Virus record (IMG/VR): IMGVR_UViG_3300035698_016888
Coordinates: 1 to 20,652 of that record
Reading direction: 5' to 3' (one strand)
Length of the DNA stretch: 20,652 nt
Origin: a virus
Shown: positions 3,164-15,913 of the stretch, one piece after another
Numbering within the stretch: the stretch's first letter is position 1
Layout of the letters: the number at the start of each line of letters is the position of its first letter
Notes under the pieces: model-generated
The model's database searches: none
What the model was told of the DNA's origin: nothing
The model's input: the letters and a program-made list of their open reading frames with translations, nothing else
Position numbers and translations under genes: made by a program

Positions 3164-4294
3164 ATGCAGATTAATAAATTAGCAAATATGTTCCCAATGA
3201 TGAGTGATGAAGAGATTCAAGAACTCGCAAATGATATTAAAGAGAATGGGTTAAGAGAACCTATATGGATTTATAACAATGAAGTTATAGACGGCAGAAA
3301 TAGAATGAAAGCTTGCGAAATAGCTGGAGTTGAACCTAAAACACAAGAGTGGGATGGTAAAGGTTCATTAGTAGCTTTTATAGTATCCTTAAATTTACAC
3401 AGAAGGCAGTTAACAGCTTCTCAAAAAACTATAGTTGCTCTTGAAATATTACCCGAACTTGAAAAAGAAGCAAAAGCAAGGCAAGTTCGTAAACCAGATT
3501 CTGTTAGCGCAATCGTGCCACAACAGAATGAACCGCTTAGTGCTAAAAATACACTAAGCGAAGATAAAGGTAAGGCAGTTGATAAAGCCTCAAAACTTGT
3601 AGGTGCTAGTGCTAGGTATATTTCTGACGCTAAGAAGATAGAGAAGGTTCAACCTAAAGCTATAGCAGAAATTAAAGAAGGTAAGAAAACAATACCTGAG
3701 GTTATAAAGGTTATTAAACAAGAAGAACGTAAAGAAAAAATAGCTAAACAAAAAGAAGATATTGAGAAAGGTAATATAGAAAAACCATCAGGCGAATATG
3801 ATGTAATAGCTATAGACCCACCTTGGCGTTACTCTGATGAAGGTAAATATGACCCTGAACAAAGAAGGGGAACTACACCATACCCAACTATGAACCAAGA
3901 AGAAATAAAACAACTCAAAATACCATCTAAAAAAGATAGCGTTTTATTTCTATGGACAACTCATTCGCAATTATTCAACGCAAAAGAATTATTAGATGAA
4001 TGGGGCTATGAGTATAAGGCAACAATGGTATGGAATAAAGTTAATATAGGTATTGGTAAACGCTTCAGGTACCTTTGCGAATTCTGCCTTGTTGGTACTA
4101 AGGGTAAACCATTTTGGAACAACACACGCTATCCTGAACTCATTGAAGAGAAGCGTAGAGAACATAGCCGTAAGCCTGAAGCCTTTTATGAGTTGGTAGA
4201 AAAAATAACGGCAGGTAGAAGGTTAGATTACTTTAGCCGTTCTAAAAGAGAGGGTTGGGATACATTCGGAACAGATGAATTTGGAGAAGAATAA
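3164..4294 (+). CDS. ParB-like domain fused to MT-A70 family adenine methyltransferase
   Basis: Predicted S-adenosylmethionine-dependent N6-adenine DNA methyltransferase. Residues 1-90 are a ParB/sulfiredoxin-type domain with SDEEIQELANDIKENGLREP and the DGRNR motif at 43-47. Residues about 90-200 are a charged helical linker (ASQKTIVALEI, SARYISDAKKIEKV) that may include the ParB helix-turn-helix. From about 210 the MT-A70 domain follows, with the catalytic DPPW at 218-221 and a SVLFLWTTHSQL strand downstream. Fusions of this kind are known in phages, where modification may protect phage DNA or regulate replication and transcription. The ATG has a strong AAGGAG site. The stop overlaps the next start by one base (TAATG), indicating translational coupling to the nuclease-like gene. 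Confidence 0.85.
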   Translation: MQINKLANMFPMMSDEEIQELANDIKENGLREPIWIYNNEVIDGRNRMKACEIAGVEPKTQEWDGKGSLVAFIVSLNLHRRQLTASQKTIVALEILPELEKEAKARQVRKPDSVSAIVPQQNEPLSAKNTLSEDKGKAVDKASKLVGASARYISDAKKIEKVQPKAIAEIKEGKKTIPEVIKVIKQEERKEKIAKQKEDIEKGNIEKPSGEYDVIAIDPPWRYSDEGKYDPEQRRGTTPYPTMNQEEIKQLKIPSKKDSVLFLWTTHSQLFNAKELLDEWGYEYKATMVWNKVNIGIGKRFRYLCEFCLVGTKGKPFWNNTRYPELIEEKRREHSRKPEAFYELVEKITAGRRLDYFSRSKREGWDTFGTDEFGEE

Positions 4295-7657: not shown

Positions 7658-9340
7658 ATGAGTGAAGTAGAAGAAGCAGTAGTAGAAGAAGAGCGTGTTG
7701 TTATAAGGGGGCAAGAAGGACCGCAGACAGAGTTTTTAGCTAATGATTCGGATATTTGTTTATATGGTGGAGCTGCGGGTGGTGGTAAGAGTTATGCATT
7801 GTTAATAGACCCTTTGAGGCATATAGGTGTTCCGAATTTTAATAGTACAATTTTTAGAAGGAACAGCCCCCAAATTAAGAATGCAGGTGGTTTATGGGAT
7901 ACTTCTATTGAGATATACAAGCAAATTAATGGTAAGCCTACTGAATCTAGGTTATTTTGGAGATTTGGTGAGAGGGATGGGGATAATAGTGAGATTAGGT
8001 TTGGGCATATGGAGTACGAGCAGGATAAGTATAACTATGATGGTTCGCAGATATGTATGATAGGGTTCGATGAATTACAGCATTTTAGTGAATCTCAGTT
8101 CTTTTATATGTTAAGTAGGAATAGAAGTACATGTGGTGTTAAGCCTTACATAAGAGCTACTTGTAATCCAGATGCTGATGTTTGGTTACGTAAGTTTTTA
8201 GATTGGTATATAGGAGAGGATGGATTACCTATTCTTGAGAGGAGTGGTGTTGAGCGTTATTTTATGCGTGTAAATGGGGCTGTTAAATGGGGCGATAGTA
8301 AGGCTGAGTTATTGAAGAATAATGTTGAGTTTGTTGAAGAGTATGAGATTATAATGATGAAATACAAGAGGGCTATTAAGGGTGTTCGTGTTGCTTATGA
8401 TGAGAGTAAGAGGGATGTTATAAATGCTATTAATAAAAAGTATACGAAGAGGATACTTAAGATAAAGGAGGAGGCGTTAGATGGTGTTAAGAGTTTTACG
8501 TTTATTGCTTCTAAGGTTACGGATAATAAGATATTGCTTGATACTAACCCCGGATATTTGGCGAATCTTAAGGCTTTACCGTTAATTGAGAGGGCGAGGT
8601 TATTGGATGGTAATTGGAATATAAAGGCTGAATCTGGTAAATTTTTTAATAAGGATTGGTTTGTTGAGGTAAGTAATAAAGATGTTCCTGTGGTTGGTGA
8701 GGATATAAAAGAGGTTAGGTATTGGGATTTTGCTGCTACTGCTCCTTCTAAGAGGAATAAGGATCCAGATTATACTGTTGGAATAAAAATGCGTAAAGTT
8801 GGGTTGAATTATTTTATTATTAGTGTGTTGAGGGTAAGAATGAATCCTGCTGAGTTGGAGAAGTTATTTTTGGAAACCAGTATTACAGATAAAAATATGG
8901 CTGATAATTTAAATATACCTTATTCTGTTAAGTGGGAGCAAGAGCCGGGTGCATCGGGTAAATCGGAGACATATCGTTTAAAGTGTTTATTAGCGGGTTT
9001 TAGTTGTAATGGGATACCTACTGCTGGCAAGGGTAAAGAGTTAAGGGCGAAACCATTGGCTGTTCAGGCTGAGATTGGTAATATTAAGATAGTAAAAGCA
9101 GAGTGGAATGATACTTTTGTTAATGAAATGCATATGTTTGGTGATCCTAGTATTCGGCATGATGACCAAGTTGATTCTGCTTCGGGTGCGTTTAATCAGT
9201 TATGTTCTGCTTTTATACATCCTACAATTACAGGTGATTCTTCTGAAGTTGTGTTTATACCTGAGGAAGAGAAGGTTAAGATGCGTATAGAGGCATATGA
9301 GAGTTTAGAGGATGATTTTTTAAATGGTGATGATATATAA
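7658..9340 (+). CDS. terL: Terminase large subunit (TerL), packaging ATPase and nuclease
   Basis: Drives ATP-dependent DNA translocation into the procapsid and cuts the concatemer. The ATPase domain has Walker A GGAAGGGKS at residues 37-45 and Walker B ICMIGFDE with D138 and E139, followed by the coupling segment RATCNPDAD. A basic helical stretch lies at about 230-275 (KYKRAIKGVRVAYDESKRDV). The RNase H-like nuclease domain has VRYWDFAAT with D357, and later HDDQVDSASGAF with D502, D503 and D506 as metal ligands. Length (560 residues) is normal. The start follows AAGGAG by 8 nt. The portal gene begins 12 bp after the stop. Confidence 0.95.
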   Translation: MSEVEEAVVEEERVVIRGQEGPQTEFLANDSDICLYGGAAGGGKSYALLIDPLRHIGVPNFNSTIFRRNSPQIKNAGGLWDTSIEIYKQINGKPTESRLFWRFGERDGDNSEIRFGHMEYEQDKYNYDGSQICMIGFDELQHFSESQFFYMLSRNRSTCGVKPYIRATCNPDADVWLRKFLDWYIGEDGLPILERSGVERYFMRVNGAVKWGDSKAELLKNNVEFVEEYEIIMMKYKRAIKGVRVAYDESKRDVINAINKKYTKRILKIKEEALDGVKSFTFIASKVTDNKILLDTNPGYLANLKALPLIERARLLDGNWNIKAESGKFFNKDWFVEVSNKDVPVVGEDIKEVRYWDFAATAPSKRNKDPDYTVGIKMRKVGLNYFIISVLRVRMNPAELEKLFLETSITDKNMADNLNIPYSVKWEQEPGASGKSETYRLKCLLAGFSCNGIPTAGKGKELRAKPLAVQAEIGNIKIVKAEWNDTFVNEMHMFGDPSIRHDDQVDSASGAFNQLCSAFIHPTITGDSSEVVFIPEEEKVKMRIEAYESLEDDFLNGDDI

Positions 9341-9351
9341 GGGAATAAATT

Positions 9352-10821
9352 ATGAGTAGTAAAGAATATAAGAAGCAGTATTACCAAGAGAACAAAGAGA
9401 AAATTAAGGCTCGTTCTAAGGCTAAGTATTTGGAGAATAAGGAGATAAAAGAATTGGAAGAGGTTAAGGCTAGGAATATAGGTGGTATATCTACAGCATC
9501 TACATCTAATGCAACGTTTTTCAGTTTAGAGTCTCCGAATGTAAACAGTTTATGTTCTGATGCTAATGTTATGAGTTATTTAAATAGTTGGGTATATTCT
9601 TGTGCTACTATAAATGCATCTTCTGTGGCTTCTCAAGAGCTTCGTTTATATGCAACTGTTGAGGATGCATCTAGTAATAAGTTCTTACATAAAACGAGGG
9701 AGGTTAGTAAGGAGCAGTTTGAGTATATAAAGGGAGATAGTTCTGTTAAGAGTTTGGCTCGTATAAGGCAGGCTGATAATGTAGTTGAGATAATTGATCA
9801 TCCTTTACTTGATTTGTTAGATAATATAAATCCTTTTAACAATAATTTTGAGAGTTTAGAGTTAACATCTTTGTATTTGGATATGATTGGAGATTCTTAT
9901 TGGTGGATACGTAAGGATGAGTTAGGTATACCTTATGAGATATGGGTATTACAGGGGCAGTATATGAAGATTGTACCTGCTAAGACTATGAATACGTTTA
10001 TAAAGGGTTATGTATATGGTGTTCCTAAGTTTGATATGGGTGATGGTTTAAATATGAAGGATTTGATAAAGTTTAAGCGTGATGAGATAATACATTTTAA
10101 AACACCTAATCCTCAGAGTTTATATTATGGTAAAGGAGCTGCACAGGCGGTTGTAGGAGCTATTAACAGGATGGGGGCTATGGATGTATCAGAAACTGCT
10201 CGTTTACATAATATGGGGCGTCCTGACTTTGTTGTGGATTATAAGGGTAAACTTGACCAATCTGAGATAAAGAAGGTTGAGAGAATGTGGAATAATGCGT
10301 TTGGTGGTCCTGGTAAAGATGGTAAAATCAAGGTGATGGATGAGGATTTTGATTTAAAGACGTTAGGTTTTAGTCCAAGAGATATGGAGTATTTAAATGG
10401 TAGGATATGGAGTTTAAAAGAGATTGCTTCTGCTTTTGGTGTTCCTTATTCGTATTTAGATAGTTCGGATGCAAAGAAGGCTACGAGTGAGATAGCGGAG
10501 AGAACGTATGCTAAAACTACTATATTGCCTAAGATTACTCGTATAGCTGAGAAGTTGAATGAGCAGTTAGTTCCGTTATATGATGATACGGGAAGGATGT
10601 TCTTAGCTTACGACAATCCTGTTCCTCAAGATAAAAAGGCGTTATTAGCTGAGAACACAGGATATGTTAAGCAGGGTATTATGACGGTTAATGAAGCTCG
10701 TTTAAAAATTGGTTTACCTAAATTGGGTGAAGAGTTTGATATTCCTAAGGTAGATGGAAACATAGGGCAAACTTCAGATATTATAGATGATGGTGTAAAT
10801 GAACAGAATGAGGAAGAATAA
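9352..10821 (+). CDS. Portal protein, HK97 family, with an unusual charged N-terminal extension
   Basis: Forms the dodecameric ring through which DNA enters and leaves the head. From about residue 60 the sequence follows HK97-type portals: MSYLNSWVYSCATINASSVA (host helix), then the SLYLDMIGDSYWWIRKD strand region, IIHFKTPNP, and the late helix with KEIASAFGVPYSYLD. The first 40 residues (SKEYKKQYYQENKEKIKARS and onward) are lysine/tyrosine-rich and resemble a low-complexity motif known from other phage proteins rather than portals. The Shine-Dalgarno site is weak (AAGGGA). The stop overlaps the next start (TAATG). Confidence 0.9.
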   Translation: MSSKEYKKQYYQENKEKIKARSKAKYLENKEIKELEEVKARNIGGISTASTSNATFFSLESPNVNSLCSDANVMSYLNSWVYSCATINASSVASQELRLYATVEDASSNKFLHKTREVSKEQFEYIKGDSSVKSLARIRQADNVVEIIDHPLLDLLDNINPFNNNFESLELTSLYLDMIGDSYWWIRKDELGIPYEIWVLQGQYMKIVPAKTMNTFIKGYVYGVPKFDMGDGLNMKDLIKFKRDEIIHFKTPNPQSLYYGKGAAQAVVGAINRMGAMDVSETARLHNMGRPDFVVDYKGKLDQSEIKKVERMWNNAFGGPGKDGKIKVMDEDFDLKTLGFSPRDMEYLNGRIWSLKEIASAFGVPYSYLDSSDAKKATSEIAERTYAKTTILPKITRIAEKLNEQLVPLYDDTGRMFLAYDNPVPQDKKALLAENTGYVKQGIMTVNEARLKIGLPKLGEEFDIPKVDGNIGQTSDIIDDGVNEQNEEE

Positions 10822-11237
10822 TGGATTATAATTGGCAAACGTTAACACAAAAGCCTTTAGATGAGGAGTTTATTAGGGAACACGCTTCTGAGATAACGGC
10901 TTCTTCTTGGCATAACATTGAGAAGTATTCTGTATTGTCTTTACCGTTTATAGAGGAATTCATAGATAGGTTTGTGTGGAGGTATTTATGTATATACCAA
11001 GTATTAAGTGAAGATTTTATGAAGAAGTATTCTGATAGGGTTAATTGGCATACAGCTTGTGCGAATCAAACAATGAGTGAAGGCTTTATAGAGGAGTTTT
11101 CGGATGTAGTTGATTGGGTTTTTATAGCGTTGTATCAGGAATTGAGTGATGAGTTTATAGAAAAACATAGTGATAGGTTAAATGTTGAACTTTTAAAAAT
11201 AAATAGGAAGAGGAGAAATAATGAAGAAACAGGTTAA
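10821..11237 (+). CDS. Small protein of five 23-residue repeats
   Basis: Unknown function. The 138 residues are almost entirely tandem repeats of about 23 residues with the pattern (L/M)S-x2-FI-x2-(F/Y)-SD-x-(V/L)-x-W-x4-x-Q, for example LSEDFMKKYSDRVNWHTACA and SEGFIEEFSDVVDWVFIALY. Regular Leu, Phe and Trp positions suggest an ankyrin-like helical solenoid. Similar repeats occur in scattered phage and bacterial proteins of unknown role. The gene is coupled to the portal gene by TAATG, and its last 17 bases overlap the protease gene. It is therefore made at the same time as head proteins and may be a binding or assembly factor, or a moron that has inserted into the head operon. Confidence 0.8.
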   Translation: MDYNWQTLTQKPLDEEFIREHASEITASSWHNIEKYSVLSLPFIEEFIDRFVWRYLCIYQVLSEDFMKKYSDRVNWHTACANQTMSEGFIEEFSDVVDWVFIALYQELSDEFIEKHSDRLNVELLKINRKRRNNEETG

Positions 11238-12297
11238 ATTAAACAAGGTTATAAATAAATTAGATAGTGATTTTGTAAAGTTGTTAAAAGAGCAATTGGT
11301 TAAAGATGGTGTAGATTTAGATGATTGTGAAGTATTTAGGAAGAATACTGAAGCGGTTACAGATGATATAGAGCATAAGGCTAAATTAGAGGAAGGTACT
11401 AGAACTGCTATTAAGTATATATCTACGAGAACAGTTGATCAATCGGGAGATATTATTCTACCTAAGGGTGTGGATTTTAAACTATTCAAGAAGGGTGGAA
11501 TGCCTGTTTTCCATAACCACGATTACTCAAAGCCTCAAATTGGTATTGCAGAGAGTATTAAGTCCGATGAGTGGGGTGTTATGGCCAAGGTTCGTTATGC
11601 CGATACAGGAGAAGGTACTTTAGCCGATGTTCTTTGGAAGTTAACATCTCAGGGTATGAATAAACAAAGTTCAGTTGGCATAATTCCTACTGAGATTATT
11701 CGTAAAGGAGATGATAGTTTTAATTCAGCCGTTAAGATATTAGTTGCTGAATACCCTGAATTAAAGAAAACAAAGGGTGATTTGAATAGAATTATATCTA
11801 AATGTATTCTTTTTGAATTTTCAGATGTAAGTTTAGCCTGCAACACTGATACTGATGTTTTAGCTGTATCTAAGATGTATTCAGATGCTGGTGCTGATGA
11901 GAAGCTTTTGAAGCAATTAGGTTTAGATGTAGAAGTTAAAATGGAGGAGAAGGATGAGGTATTGGATGTATTGGTGGATGGAGATGAAAATAGGGATGCT
12001 GAAGTTATTGACGTTGTTGTTGAAGATAATGACGTTTCAGTGGAAGAAGATATAGTTGAAGTAAAAGAAGGTGAAGAGCCTCCTGAAGAGGTTAAGCGTA
12101 TTCCTGATTCTGCTTTTGAGTTAGAGGAGAAGGCTGAAGAGGTTGTTATAGTTGAGGAAAAGGTGGAGAAGGTAACGTTGGTTGCTGAGCCTACTACAGT
12201 TAAATTAATTCATAAGCCTCAGTTTTCTATTAGTAAAGATGATATTAAAAAAGAGTTATCTGCTGAAATGCGTAAGAAACTTGGAAGACTGCTTTAG
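11221..12297 (+). CDS. Prohead maturation protease, HK97/U35-S78 type, with an acidic C-terminal extension
   Basis: Serine protease that cuts scaffold segments from the procapsid. Residues about 60-215 form the protease domain: TRTVDQSGDIILPKGVD, the PVFHNHDYSKPQIGIAES segment with the candidate catalytic His at 98/100, KQSSVGIIP with the candidate Ser at 150/151, and FEFSDVSLACNTD. From about 230 to 320 there is a strongly acidic Val/Glu/Asp-rich region, then a basic helical end (KKELSAEMRKKLGRLL). A tail of this kind could serve as a built-in scaffold. GAGGAG lies upstream of the ATG, inside the preceding gene. The capsid genes follow after a non-coding leader. Confidence 0.88.
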   Translation: MKKQVKLNKVINKLDSDFVKLLKEQLVKDGVDLDDCEVFRKNTEAVTDDIEHKAKLEEGTRTAIKYISTRTVDQSGDIILPKGVDFKLFKKGGMPVFHNHDYSKPQIGIAESIKSDEWGVMAKVRYADTGEGTLADVLWKLTSQGMNKQSSVGIIPTEIIRKGDDSFNSAVKILVAEYPELKKTKGDLNRIISKCILFEFSDVSLACNTDTDVLAVSKMYSDAGADEKLLKQLGLDVEVKMEEKDEVLDVLVDGDENRDAEVIDVVVEDNDVSVEEDIVEVKEGEEPPEEVKRIPDSAFELEEKAEEVVIVEEKVEKVTLVAEPTTVKLIHKPQFSISKDDIKKELSAEMRKKLGRLL

Positions 12298-12356: not shown

Positions 12357-12523
12357 TAAATCAAGCCTTTGTTGTAAAAAAGGTAATAAAAGTATTATTA
12401 TTAGTGTGATTGGGTGAATGTAGCCCTTAAGTTAGAACCGTAGCTATTGGAGTTTAGCAGGGAATCGACGCAAACGGCAATTCTTAGTGTAAATTAAACA
12501 AACAAAAATTAAGAGAGGTAAAA
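12357..12523 (+). promoter_or_regulatory. Leader of the major capsid gene
   Basis: About 170 bp without an ORF. A weak promoter-like pair lies near 12370-12400 (TTGTTG, 18 bp, TATTAT). The segment 12420-12485 is less AT-rich than its surroundings and includes CCCT and AGGG blocks able to close a stem-loop of about 40 nt. An A-rich stretch then leads into the AGAGAGG ribosome binding site. Long structured leaders ahead of capsid genes often set high expression; that role is inferred. Confidence 0.35.
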
Positions 12524-13780
12524 GTGAAATTTATAAAACTTATTAAAAAGTATATGGATTCAGAAGACACCGTTTATGATAGCGGTTCTGTTCTTGAAGT
12601 ATCTGATGATATAGCTGAAGAGCTTATTAAGTCTGAAAGGGCTGAAGCATCTGATGGTATTATCAAAGAAGTTAAGGCTGAAGATGTTGCTGCTGAGATT
12701 AAAACTGCTGTAGCTGATGCGTTGAAAGAAGTTAAGAAAGAAGAGAAGGTTGAAGTTAAAGAAACTATTGTTGTAGTTGAAGATGAGCCTATTTGGAAAG
12801 ATAGTGGTGAATTCTTACAGGCTGTTATTAAAGCTGGTAAGGGTAATAGACCTGATGAGCGTTTGTTCAAATCTACTGGTCAGAATGAAACTACTGACGC
12901 TGATGGTGGATTCTTAGTTGAACATCGTATTGGTACTGAAATCTATAAGTTAGCTGCTCAGGAATCTGTATTGCTTCCTAAGTGTGATGTTAAAGAAGTT
13001 GGTCCTATGTCCAATGGTCTTAAAATCAATCAGGTTAATGAGAGTTCTAGAACTGCTACTACATTGTTTGGTGGCGTTAGAGTTTATAGTCCGGGTGAAG
13101 GTGTAGCTAAAACTGCATTCAAACAGGCTTATTCTCAGGTAGACGTTTCTCTGGGGAAATTATGCGCCGTATCATATATGACAGATGAGTTGATGCAAGA
13201 TCGAACAGCTCTTCGTAGTTTTATAACTGCTGATGTTGGTTCTGCTTTTGCTTGGGCTATTGATGATGATATCCTTCACGGAACGACTAACACTGATATG
13301 ATTGAGATTGAAAACCACGCAGCTACTGTTCAAGTAACTGTTGCTGGTGCGAATCCTACTGCAGCTGAACTTAGTAATATGTATATTGCTATGGCTCCTC
13401 GTTCTATTGCTAGGGCTGAATGGTATATGAGTTTATCTCAGTATGCAGCTATTATGCAGTTAGAGTCCACGGTTGGTGCTAAGATTGTTCAGCCTTCGTT
13501 TGAAATTAGTCCTTACGGAACTCGTTTCGGGCGTCCTATAAATGTTATTGAGCAAGCAGATGTTGACGCAAATGATACATCCGTTATGTTCCTTGACCTT
13601 AGCCAGTACCTTGTTATTAAGAAGGGTGGCATTGATGTTGCTGAAAGCATCCACATAAAATTCCTTGAGGATGAGACAGCCCTCCGGTTCACTATGCGTA
13701 TGGGTGGATCACCTAAGTTAGCGTCTGCTGTTACGCTTCCTGATGGAACTATTATCTCGTCATTTGTGACCAGAGATTAG
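12524..13780 (+). CDS. Major capsid protein 1 (HK97 fold) with N-terminal scaffold segment
   Basis: Forms the icosahedral shell. Residues 1-43 (MKFIKLIKKYMDSEDTVY, then GSVLEVSDDIAEELIKSERA) look like a small stand-alone phage protein usually encoded near capsid genes. Residues 44-95 are a Lys/Glu-rich helical delta-domain segment. The mature part probably starts near residue 105-125 (TDADGGFLVEHRIG), as in HK97-type capsids. It continues with the E-loop region (GVRVYSPGEGVA), the spine-helix region (YMTDELMQDRTAL) and the C-terminal A and P domains (SIHIKFLEDETALRFTMRM). The start is GTG, 5 nt after AGAGAGG. The upstream protease would remove the N-terminal part. A strong terminator follows 14 bp after the stop. 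Confidence 0.9.
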   Translation: MKFIKLIKKYMDSEDTVYDSGSVLEVSDDIAEELIKSERAEASDGIIKEVKAEDVAAEIKTAVADALKEVKKEEKVEVKETIVVVEDEPIWKDSGEFLQAVIKAGKGNRPDERLFKSTGQNETTDADGGFLVEHRIGTEIYKLAAQESVLLPKCDVKEVGPMSNGLKINQVNESSRTATTLFGGVRVYSPGEGVAKTAFKQAYSQVDVSLGKLCAVSYMTDELMQDRTALRSFITADVGSAFAWAIDDDILHGTTNTDMIEIENHAATVQVTVAGANPTAAELSNMYIAMAPRSIARAEWYMSLSQYAAIMQLESTVGAKIVQPSFEISPYGTRFGRPINVIEQADVDANDTSVMFLDLSQYLVIKKGGIDVAESIHIKFLEDETALRFTMRMGGSPKLASAVTLPDGTIISSFVTRD

Positions 13781-13793
13781 TAAATATATTAGT

Positions 13794-13834
13794 AGGGGTG
13801 TGGGCAAGACATTCAGCCCACATCCCTTCTTTTT
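13794..13834 (+). terminator. Strong terminator between the two capsid genes
   Basis: AGGGGTGTGGGC (13794-13805) pairs with GCCCACATCCCT (13816-13827) with one G-U pair around a 10-base loop, followed by TCTTTTT. Capsid gene 2 has no clear promoter after it, so read-through would feed the downstream genes. Confidence 0.85.
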
Positions 13835-13878
13835 ATCAGCCGAAAACAAAGGCTAAACAGAGATAGGAGATAAATAAG

Positions 13879-14973
13879 ATGCGTATGGAAAAGAGGTTGG
13901 AATTAGGTAAAAGGATCCAAGCGGTTGTAAAAGCTGCAAGCGGTCAAGGTGAATCAGCAGTAGGATTTGGAGATACATTAGTTGATACCACTTTAATTGC
14001 TGATATTTTGGGACAGAACTTTGCACAAGGTTCTATATACTCAAGATGTAAGATTTATAATGTTGGTGAGAATTCAAATGGGTTAAAAATTCCTATTGCT
14101 GATACATCTACTAGAACAGAATCTGGTGGTGTAAGAGGTGGAGTTCTTGCTTATTGGTTGAATGAAGCTGATACCAAAACAGCTTCTGATGCAGAGTTTG
14201 GACAGTTAAACTTAGGATTGAATACGCTTGTAGTTGTAATACCTACTACGGATGAGCTTTTAAATGATGCTCCTGCGTTGGCTCAGTTTTTACACGATTC
14301 AGCGATAGATGCTATTCTTTACAAAGTTGATAGAGCTATCCTTTATGGAAATGGTGGTTCTTCTATTAATGGTATCGCTAATTCTGCGGTTACTATTGTT
14401 GTTACTGCTACTGACCCTATTACTATTGCAGAGATTGAAGATATGTATCATGCATATTACGGTTCTCCTAATGGTGTATGGTGTATGAGTAAAGCAGCTC
14501 AGGAAGAGGTTATAGACCTTGATTGGACTACACAGCCTAATGGTTATGACTTTGAAGTAACTGAAGATGCACCGTTTGGTCGTTTATATGGGCTTCCTAT
14601 TCTTGTAACTGATGTAATGAGCGGCGATGATATAGTTCTTGGTGATTATTCTCAGTTTATATTAGCACAGAAAGAAGTAACTCAGGCTGTTAATAGTTCT
14701 CTTAAGTTTTTAGAGGATGAGAAATATTTTCGCTTTGTTCTTAGGATAAACGGTGATGTTGGTTGGACTTCTAGTATGACTTTGGAAGATGGTTCGGTTG
14801 TATCTCCTTTTGTTATTAAGAGTGATATGGATCAATCTACGAGTTCTAGTTCTTCTGAGTTATATAGTTCTTCGAGTTCTAGTTCAGAGAAGTATAGTTC
14901 TTCTTCTAGTTCTGTAGATAGTTCTTCAAGTAGTTCTGAGAAGTATAGTTCTTCAAGTAGTTCTAGTGCGTAA
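13879..14973 (+). CDS. Major capsid protein 2 (HK97-fold paralogue) with Ser-rich C-terminal repeat tail
   Basis: A second HK97-fold capsid protein. It aligns by eye with capsid protein 1 throughout the mature region: NSNGLKI, the STRTESGGVRGGVLAYW E-loop region, TDELLNDAPALAQFLHDSA spine region, the conserved KFLEDE and a TL-DG-(S/T)-(V/I)-(V/I)-S-x-FV end. It lacks the delta-domain: only about 30 residues precede the mature-like part. Residues 320-364 are a low-complexity tail of Ser runs broken by ELY, EKY, VD and EKY, absent from capsid protein 1. It may be a second shell component, a vertex protein comparable to T4 gp24, or a displayed capsid variant. AGGAG lies upstream of the ATG. Terminators flank the gene on both sides. 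Confidence 0.85.
   Translation: MRMEKRLELGKRIQAVVKAASGQGESAVGFGDTLVDTTLIADILGQNFAQGSIYSRCKIYNVGENSNGLKIPIADTSTRTESGGVRGGVLAYWLNEADTKTASDAEFGQLNLGLNTLVVVIPTTDELLNDAPALAQFLHDSAIDAILYKVDRAILYGNGGSSINGIANSAVTIVVTATDPITIAEIEDMYHAYYGSPNGVWCMSKAAQEEVIDLDWTTQPNGYDFEVTEDAPFGRLYGLPILVTDVMSGDDIVLGDYSQFILAQKEVTQAVNSSLKFLEDEKYFRFVLRINGDVGWTSSMTLEDGSVVSPFVIKSDMDQSTSSSSSELYSSSSSSSEKYSSSSSSVDSSSSSSEKYSSSSSSSA
14827..14972 (+). repeat. Ser-codon repeat tract in capsid gene 2
   Basis: The DNA is a run of AGT and TCT-type serine codons interrupted by GAG-TTA-TAT and GAG-AAG-TAT. It encodes 45 residues with units of about 10 (six to seven Ser, then Glu-Lys-Tyr). Two codon families alternate, so the repeat is not a simple recent triplet expansion. 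Confidence 0.8.
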
Positions 14974-14980
14974 TTGATTT

Positions 14981-15011
14981 AGGGGTGAGGCTAATTTCTC
15001 ACCCCTCTTTT
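14981..15011 (+). terminator. Terminator after capsid gene 2
   Basis: AGGGGTGAG (14981-14989) pairs with CTCACCCCT (14998-15006) around an 8-base loop, then CTTTT. The T-run continues directly into the AAGGAGG ribosome binding site of the adaptor gene; TTTTAA (15008-15013) and TTAAAA (15021-15026) could also pair weakly and place GGAGG in the loop. Confidence 0.75.
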
Positions 15012-15025
15012 AAGGAGGAATTAAA

Positions 15026-15913
15026 ATGGCTAAAGCTACAACAGGTATAACAAATTTATTCTTATGGAATAAATTCATTAATGATACCGATGATGATAAC
15101 ACTTCTTTAATTGGTGATACTGAAACAATAAGATATATTATTGAGCAAACGAATGATTTAATTGCTCAGAAGTGTGGAAGAACGTTTGGTTCAACTACGT
15201 ATAAGGAATGGGTTCAGGGTTATGGAACTGAGTATTTGGTATTGGGGAATTATCCTATAACTAATGTAAAACTTGTATCTGCTTCTTCTGTAGATGTATG
15301 CACAGTTGAAGGAACTGGTTTTCAAGTTGCAACGGTTACATCTAATGCATCTTCTATGTCCTTATACTCTATAGATACTACTGGAGCGGATGTTGAGAGT
15401 GTATTGAATTATTCTAATTATGCTAATGTTAATTCTATTGTTACGGCTATTGATTTAGTTTCGGGATGGGATGCAGAGGTATTATCTGATAGGGGAGATG
15501 CATTAACACAGCTTATACGCCCATTAGATTCAGGTTGGGCATTAGATGAGAAGCAATATATGAAAACGCCTTATTTGGGTATTTCTGTTAGGATTGCTGA
15601 AGATTCTGATTCTACAATTGAGAGGATTGGTGGTGGTTTATTTTGCACTGATGTATTTTGTTGGTATACTGCGGGATGTGATTTGCCAATTTCAGATGAG
15701 GTAGGTGGAACACAGTTAGTAGAAGGCAACGTTCCTCAATCATTAACATTAACTGCGAACCGTATTATTAAAGATTATCTCGAACAAACCAATGAAGATA
15801 CCAATATGAAAGAGGAAACGATAGGTGATTATAAATATAAAAGAGATGGTATTATGAGTGCGGTGGATAGACATTGGAAAGATTTGCAACAGTATTCTAG
15901 GAAGGTAGTTTAA
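15026..15913 (+). CDS. Head-tail adaptor (HK97 gp6-like connector)
   Basis: Binds under the portal and forms the first ring of the head-tail connector. The N-terminal helices (residues 20-55, TETIRYIIEQTNDLIAQKCG) and the YKEWVQGYGTEYLVLGNYPI segment (59-78) are the signature of gp6/gp15-type adaptors. The late helix LTLTANRIIKDYLEQTNED and the DYKYKRDG strand complete the fold. Residues about 85-195 are an additional Ser/Val-rich region with little charge, so the protein (295 residues) is much longer than a minimal adaptor. AAGGAGG lies just upstream. The stop overlaps the next start (TAATG). Confidence 0.8.
   Translation: MAKATTGITNLFLWNKFINDTDDDNTSLIGDTETIRYIIEQTNDLIAQKCGRTFGSTTYKEWVQGYGTEYLVLGNYPITNVKLVSASSVDVCTVEGTGFQVATVTSNASSMSLYSIDTTGADVESVLNYSNYANVNSIVTAIDLVSGWDAEVLSDRGDALTQLIRPLDSGWALDEKQYMKTPYLGISVRIAEDSDSTIERIGGGLFCTDVFCWYTAGCDLPISDEVGGTQLVEGNVPQSLTLTANRIIKDYLEQTNEDTNMKEETIGDYKYKRDGIMSAVDRHWKDLQQYSRKVV

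Follow-up and report, generated by a model that had tools for sequence, protein, structure and literature searches.

The window, by which we mean the whole stretch of DNA analysed here, is a linear IMG/VR virus record of 20,652 bases whose head region runs in the order TerL, portal, a small gene, protease, MCP1, MCP2, small genes, major tail protein and a tape-measure-like gene. Elsewhere in the window, positions 3164-4294 encode an MT-A70 methyltransferase with a weak match to a ParB-like N-terminal domain. The features of the capsid locus and its surroundings were as follows:

7658-9340, TerL
9352-10821, portal
11221..12297, plus strand, head maturation protease upstream of MCP1 (phrog_80, 3.8e-7)
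12412..12494, plus strand, structured RNA leader upstream of MCP1 (covariation)
12524..13780, plus strand, MCP1, HK97-fold major capsid protein, 418 aa, GTG start (PF05065, phrog_10, RcGTA capsid PDB profile)
12524..12868, plus strand, N-terminal scaffold-like (delta-type) segment of MCP1 (~115 residues before KSTGQNE, absent from MCP2)
13794..13827, plus strand, strong hairpin of terminator or attenuator type in the spacer between MCP1 and MCP2, a 12-bp stem followed by TTCTTTTT (spacer MFE z = -5.5)
13838..13854, plus strand, small covarying hairpin directly before the ribosome-binding site of MCP2 (stem pairs vary between loci)
13879..14973, plus strand, MCP2, second HK97-fold capsid protein, 364 aa (PF05065, PDB profile to HK97 gp5)
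14833..14970, plus strand, Ser-rich C-terminal tail of MCP2 with E-K-Y / E-L-Y spacers (32 Ser in 46 residues)
14981..15006, plus strand, terminator-like hairpin after MCP2 (folding)
15026..15913, plus strand, gene after MCP2, probable head-tail connector (by position; behind MCP2 in relatives too)

Both capsid ORFs are uninterrupted at these coordinates. The GTG start of MCP1 is preceded by AGAGAGG and is supported by the orthologue in lineage L005, which has ATG at the equivalent residue. In Pfam, MCP1 (108.5 bits, 5.3e-31) and MCP2 (96.5 bits, 2.3e-27) both passed the curated cut-off of 24.2 bits for Phage_capsid (PF05065), and both matched the PHROG major head protein family phrog_10. The two proteins align with each other over 335 columns at 31% identity (E = 7e-38), share KFLEDE and TL[PE]DG near their C-termini and have similar codon bias. 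A sequence-only reading had proposed tandem HK97-fold capsid paralogues at 12524-14973 with KFLEDE and TL-DG landmarks in each; both proposals were borne out, the second in the form TL[PE]DG. Profile searches of the PDB matched MCP1 to the RcGTA capsid and MCP2 to HK97 gp5. All Foldseek matches of MCP2 in the PDB with E < 0.001 were HK97-fold capsids or encapsulins, obtained with a poor AlphaFold query model (pLDDT 45). The HK97 fold assigned to MCP2 thus rests on the sequence profiles, and the structural support for it is weak.

The HK97 core, including the E-loop region, is wholly kept in MCP2. The N-termini of the two proteins differ. Because ~115 residues precede the shared KSTGQNE/ASGQGE motif in MCP1 and ~20 in MCP2, only MCP1 carries a scaffold-like segment, as the sequence-only reading had stated; it is probably removed during maturation. 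The segment is missing from MCP2 in all lineages, and a similar N-terminal extension is present in relatives with a single MCP. Family searches (Pfam, PHROG) with the product of the gene after MCP2, which is 24-60% identical in relatives, gave nothing above a weak level.

Descent and divergence of the capsid gene pair

Scans of IMG/VR viral contigs recovered 12 further lineages with the MCP1-MCP2 pair (L005, L006, L008, L009, L010-L013/L016, L014, L017, L020, L021, L025, L029 and L040; 13 including the window), with the near-identical contigs L010-L013/L016 taken as one lineage. All relatives are uncultured contigs of up to ~42 kb. Using clade-specific HMMs, we found one MCP1 and one MCP2, and no more, in every pair-lineage contig spanning the region; no complete locus holds a further capsid gene or a fused version. 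With one of each in 13 lineages, the pairing far exceeds chance. Gene order is constant, with MCP2 after MCP1, and in L040 an HNH-like gene lies between them. Contigs L018, L022 and L023 stop at or within MCP1. A scan of GTDB genome contigs for prophage relatives that would name a host found none, and tblastn against named phages, searching for both genes, gave single-copy matches only, at 24-27% identity. Our literature search, which left most subscription journals outside its reach, found no report of two HK97-fold capsid paralogues in siphophages.

Genes for probable homing endonucleases are inserted beside MCP2 in L040 (3108-3653, HNH-like by sequence, without a Pfam match) and in L005 (12642-13373, GIY-YIG/NUMOD3 by Pfam). 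The large terminase ORF of L020 (1810-5610, 1266 aa) has a LAGLIDADG endonuclease domain and a sub-threshold match to an intein splicing domain, and probably contains an intein.

In a rooted maximum-likelihood tree of 14 MCP1, 13 MCP2 and four single-MCP reference sequences, MCP1 and MCP2 each formed one clade (support 100/98 and 100/99), and the two clades were sisters; in an earlier tree, which included HK97 and a Helicobacter prophage, the clade supports were 96/93 and 91/92. Because the two clades are sisters in the rooted tree, the pair stems from a single old duplication followed by joint inheritance, and the duplication is lineage-wide across the 13 lineages, a point that the sequence-only reading had suggested testing. 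The alternative that MCP2 was acquired on its own from a different phage was ruled out by its sister position to MCP1 relative to the single-MCP references. The duplication predates the split of lineages that now share ~30% identity. Purifying selection acts on both genes, with dN/dS of ~0.1-0.3, a rough estimate from pairs with high dS; the near-identical L010 and L013 differ by too few changes to be informative.

MCP1 and MCP2 have diverged at different rates. In the close clade (L005, L006, L008, L017, L020 and L021), identities to the window were 70-79% for the MCP1 core, 46-54% for MCP2 and 42-68% for portal and TerL, and the MCP1 orthologues of this clade are 51-75% identical. The contrast is clearest in L006, whose MCP1 is 79% identical to that of the window and whose other head proteins reach merely 40-48%. 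Of the head proteins, MCP1 is the best conserved; MCP2 evolves about twice as fast, with a median MCP2/MCP1 distance ratio of 2.0. Between L021 and L025, the MCP1 distance is 0.13 whereas the MCP2 distance is ~1.1. Because the MCP1 and MCP2 trees conflict for these two lineages, MCP2 is exchangeable, and the pattern reflects recombination between the capsid genes with MCP2 exchanged against a constant MCP1.

RNA elements and the serine-rich stalk

The claims of paralogy and of a scaffold segment in one protein stood, but the sequence-only reading had overlooked the Ser-rich tail of MCP2 and the C-terminal domain of its relatives; it was also silent on the strong hairpin after each gene and on the conservation of the pair across the lineage.

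In 11 of the 13 lineages examined, the spacer between the capsid genes (13781-13878 in the window) folds far more stably than its dinucleotide-shuffled versions (z between -3.5 and -6.8); in the other two, L029 and L040, the strong hairpin is missing. The hairpin stems have unrelated sequences among lineages, and a T run follows several, not all, of them. In the simple reading, the hairpin would be an attenuator that lowers MCP2 expression; alternatively, it could serve to protect the MCP1 message at its end. MCP2 is equipped with its own ribosome-binding site, and the small hairpin ahead of it was at an identical position in 12 of 12 loci examined, with the stem pairs AGCC/GGCT, CGCC/GGCG, AACC/GGTT and CTC/GAG. 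An outer RNA stem masking this ribosome-binding site was considered and rejected, as partners swapped between loci paired equally well (p = 0.48).

The leader upstream of MCP1 has an architecture of nested GUA/A internal loops. Both sides have changed in 8 of its 15 pairs, and 96.6% of cells are paired versus 13-46% in slid controls. A model of the leader (R1) matched upstream of MCP1 at 10 loci (the window, L005, L006, L008, L017, L018, L020, L022, L023 and L025), with no other match below E = 1. The leader may control capsid translation. Neither the MCP1 nor the MCP2 leader had a match in Rfam.

Of the 12 lineages with a complete MCP2 C-terminus, 11 have the Ser-rich tail (the C-terminus of L029 is lost at the contig end and was left out of the count). 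In the window, its Ser codons include 14 TCT and 14 AGT. A stretch of this kind is unique to the MCP2 tail in eight of the loci examined; very long Ser-rich tracts, with up to 303 Ser per protein, also occur in tail- or connector-region proteins of L009 (5411-12692) and L040 (7431-8957). The stalk is the most variable part of MCP2, and because the MCP2 of L014 is without one, it is dispensable for the protein. In seven lineages (L006, L008, L009, L020, L021, L025 and L040), the tail runs into a conserved domain of 85-99 aa with an invariant Cys and YWA.S...GDP motifs. This tip domain had no Pfam match above cut-off and no PDB match with E < 0.4, the latter with a model of middling confidence (pLDDT 70).

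A scan for the tip domain revealed one other setting: in L038 (4410-5387), a Ser stalk and a tip domain 49% identical to that of L025 are attached to an unrelated head-region protein. This protein is encoded between the portal and the scaffold-like/coat genes of a phage with a P22-type coat (PF11651), and its anchor is an unrelated domain of ~130 aa without the HK97 fold. The shared architecture suggests that stalk and tip form a portable head-surface module. Because the module moves between unrelated head-region proteins, a surface display reading is favoured: the stalk would be exposed on the head surface, as judged from the module common to MCP2 and L038, and display would be a large part of the role of MCP2.

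A proposed division of labour

Taken together, the rates of change, the exchange of MCP2 and its missing N-terminal segment indicate that the main lattice is probably built of MCP1, with MCP2 as a specialised addition. Overall, we consider it reasonably probable that MCP1 forms the bulk shell and that MCP2 is a lower-copy, specialised subunit that co-assembles at vertices or some hexamer positions and carries an external stalk. In an ancestor of this phage lineage, one HK97-type capsid gene would have been duplicated; MCP1 would have kept the scaffold segment and build most of the shell, and MCP2 would have lost it and be unable to nucleate a shell alone. MCP2 would then be built into the lattice of MCP1 as a specialised subunit of lower copy number; the simplest place for it would be the vertex pentamers, as for T4 gp24, or else some hexamer positions. 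Its C-terminus would form a flexible stalk rich in Ser, tipped in many relatives with a small domain; this stalk would project from the head and probably touch host cells or surfaces, and the spacer hairpin would cut MCP2 mRNA and thereby set the MCP1:MCP2 ratio. We infer virion presence, copy number, location and the outward direction of the C-terminus, as well as the display function and the effect of the hairpin. By analogy with T4 gp24, a vertex position is plausible, but a tightly fitted vertex protein might resist the exchange seen between L021 and L025. The sequence-only reading had proposed either a hexamer/vertex split or a mixed shell; the unequal N-terminal segments and rates fit this proposal, and sequence alone decides neither form of it.

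Exchange of MCP2 between lineages with near-identical MCP1, retention of the full HK97 core with its E-loop region, and a surface stalk that is its most variable part would also suit a mixed shell, in which MCP2 is placed stochastically or at set hexamer positions as a display platform only and MCP1 makes the pentamers as well. The 31% identity to MCP1 and the separate MCP2 clade, however, point to a distinct structural niche, and we regard such a shell as rather unlikely. It is improbable that MCP2 stays outside the virion or is a non-essential duplicate, for example an assembly regulator or decoy: in rudiviruses a second MCP paralogue is not incorporated into virions (PMC10848311), a warning that such a paralogue need not enter them, but MCP2 has been kept under purifying selection in every lineage since a deep duplication, and its stalk and domain are otherwise found on another head-region protein (L038). 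Reversed roles, with MCP2 as the bulk shell and MCP1 as a minor protein supplying the scaffold segment, would accord with the ribosome-binding site and leader hairpin of MCP2 and the similar codon bias of both genes, but are very hard to reconcile with an MCP1 that is the most conserved head protein in the usual slot after the protease, with the MCP1-like N-terminal extension of single-MCP relatives and with a hairpin upstream of MCP2.

The favoured division, with MCP1 as bulk shell and MCP2 as specialised subunit, can be extended, although tentatively and with considerable doubt, to a two-protein shell that arose independently of T4 in small-genome siphophages, in which MCP2 would be a vertex protein with a fibre anchor on every subunit, a swappable tip and a ratio adjusted through the attenuator.

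Comparison with known systems

In most tailed phages, a single protein makes up both hexamers and pentamers. HK97 gp5 and RcGTA Rcc01687, each one capsid gene making both, differ from the pair in this respect and resemble it in fold, in the N-terminal segment (MCP1) and in the portal-protease-capsid order. The spacer hairpin alone is not unusual, because HK97 has a terminator annotated after gp5.

T4 gp23 and gp24 are HK97-fold paralogues thought to stem from gene duplication; they are ~20% identical, gp23 loses 65 N-terminal residues and gp24 10, and gp24 forms the vertices (PMC9958956). Like them, MCP1 and MCP2 are an HK97-fold paralogue pair from one duplication, both retained and with low mutual identity, and like gp24, MCP2 has a much shorter N-terminal part (~20 versus ~115 residues before the shared motif), although cleavage is only predicted here. 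Unlike the T4 proteins, they belong to PF05065 (Pfam gave this family and sub-threshold DUFs, and no T4-type capsid family), they lie in a siphophage-type gene order on contigs of up to ~42 kb, and MCP1 has its own scaffold-like segment whereas MCP2 has a Ser-rich stalk, often followed by a further C-terminal domain. By these sequence criteria, the locus encodes two paralogous HK97-fold capsid proteins that fall outside the T4 group, the second of them bearing a Ser-rich stalk. If the proposed roles are true, this would be a second, independent paralogue division, in a small siphophage, that could be used to test under what circumstances and for what reason a vertex protein arises, and would let one ask whether display keeps a duplicate capsid gene. 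The lineage offers natural experiments, with the stalk present or absent, the tip domain present or absent, and MCP2 exchanged against a near-constant MCP1.

The L038 protein shares with MCP2 a Ser stalk and C-terminal domain but carries them on its unrelated anchor of ~130 aa instead of an HK97 fold. T4 Hoc projects from the head and probably binds surfaces (PMC10385173). As in Hoc, decoration and head-fibre proteins, MCP2 would project from the head and probably bind surfaces; unlike Hoc and decoration proteins, its projection would be part of a shell subunit and not a separate addition to the finished head. A shell subunit that naturally bears a long stalk at its C-terminus would offer a ready-made platform for display.
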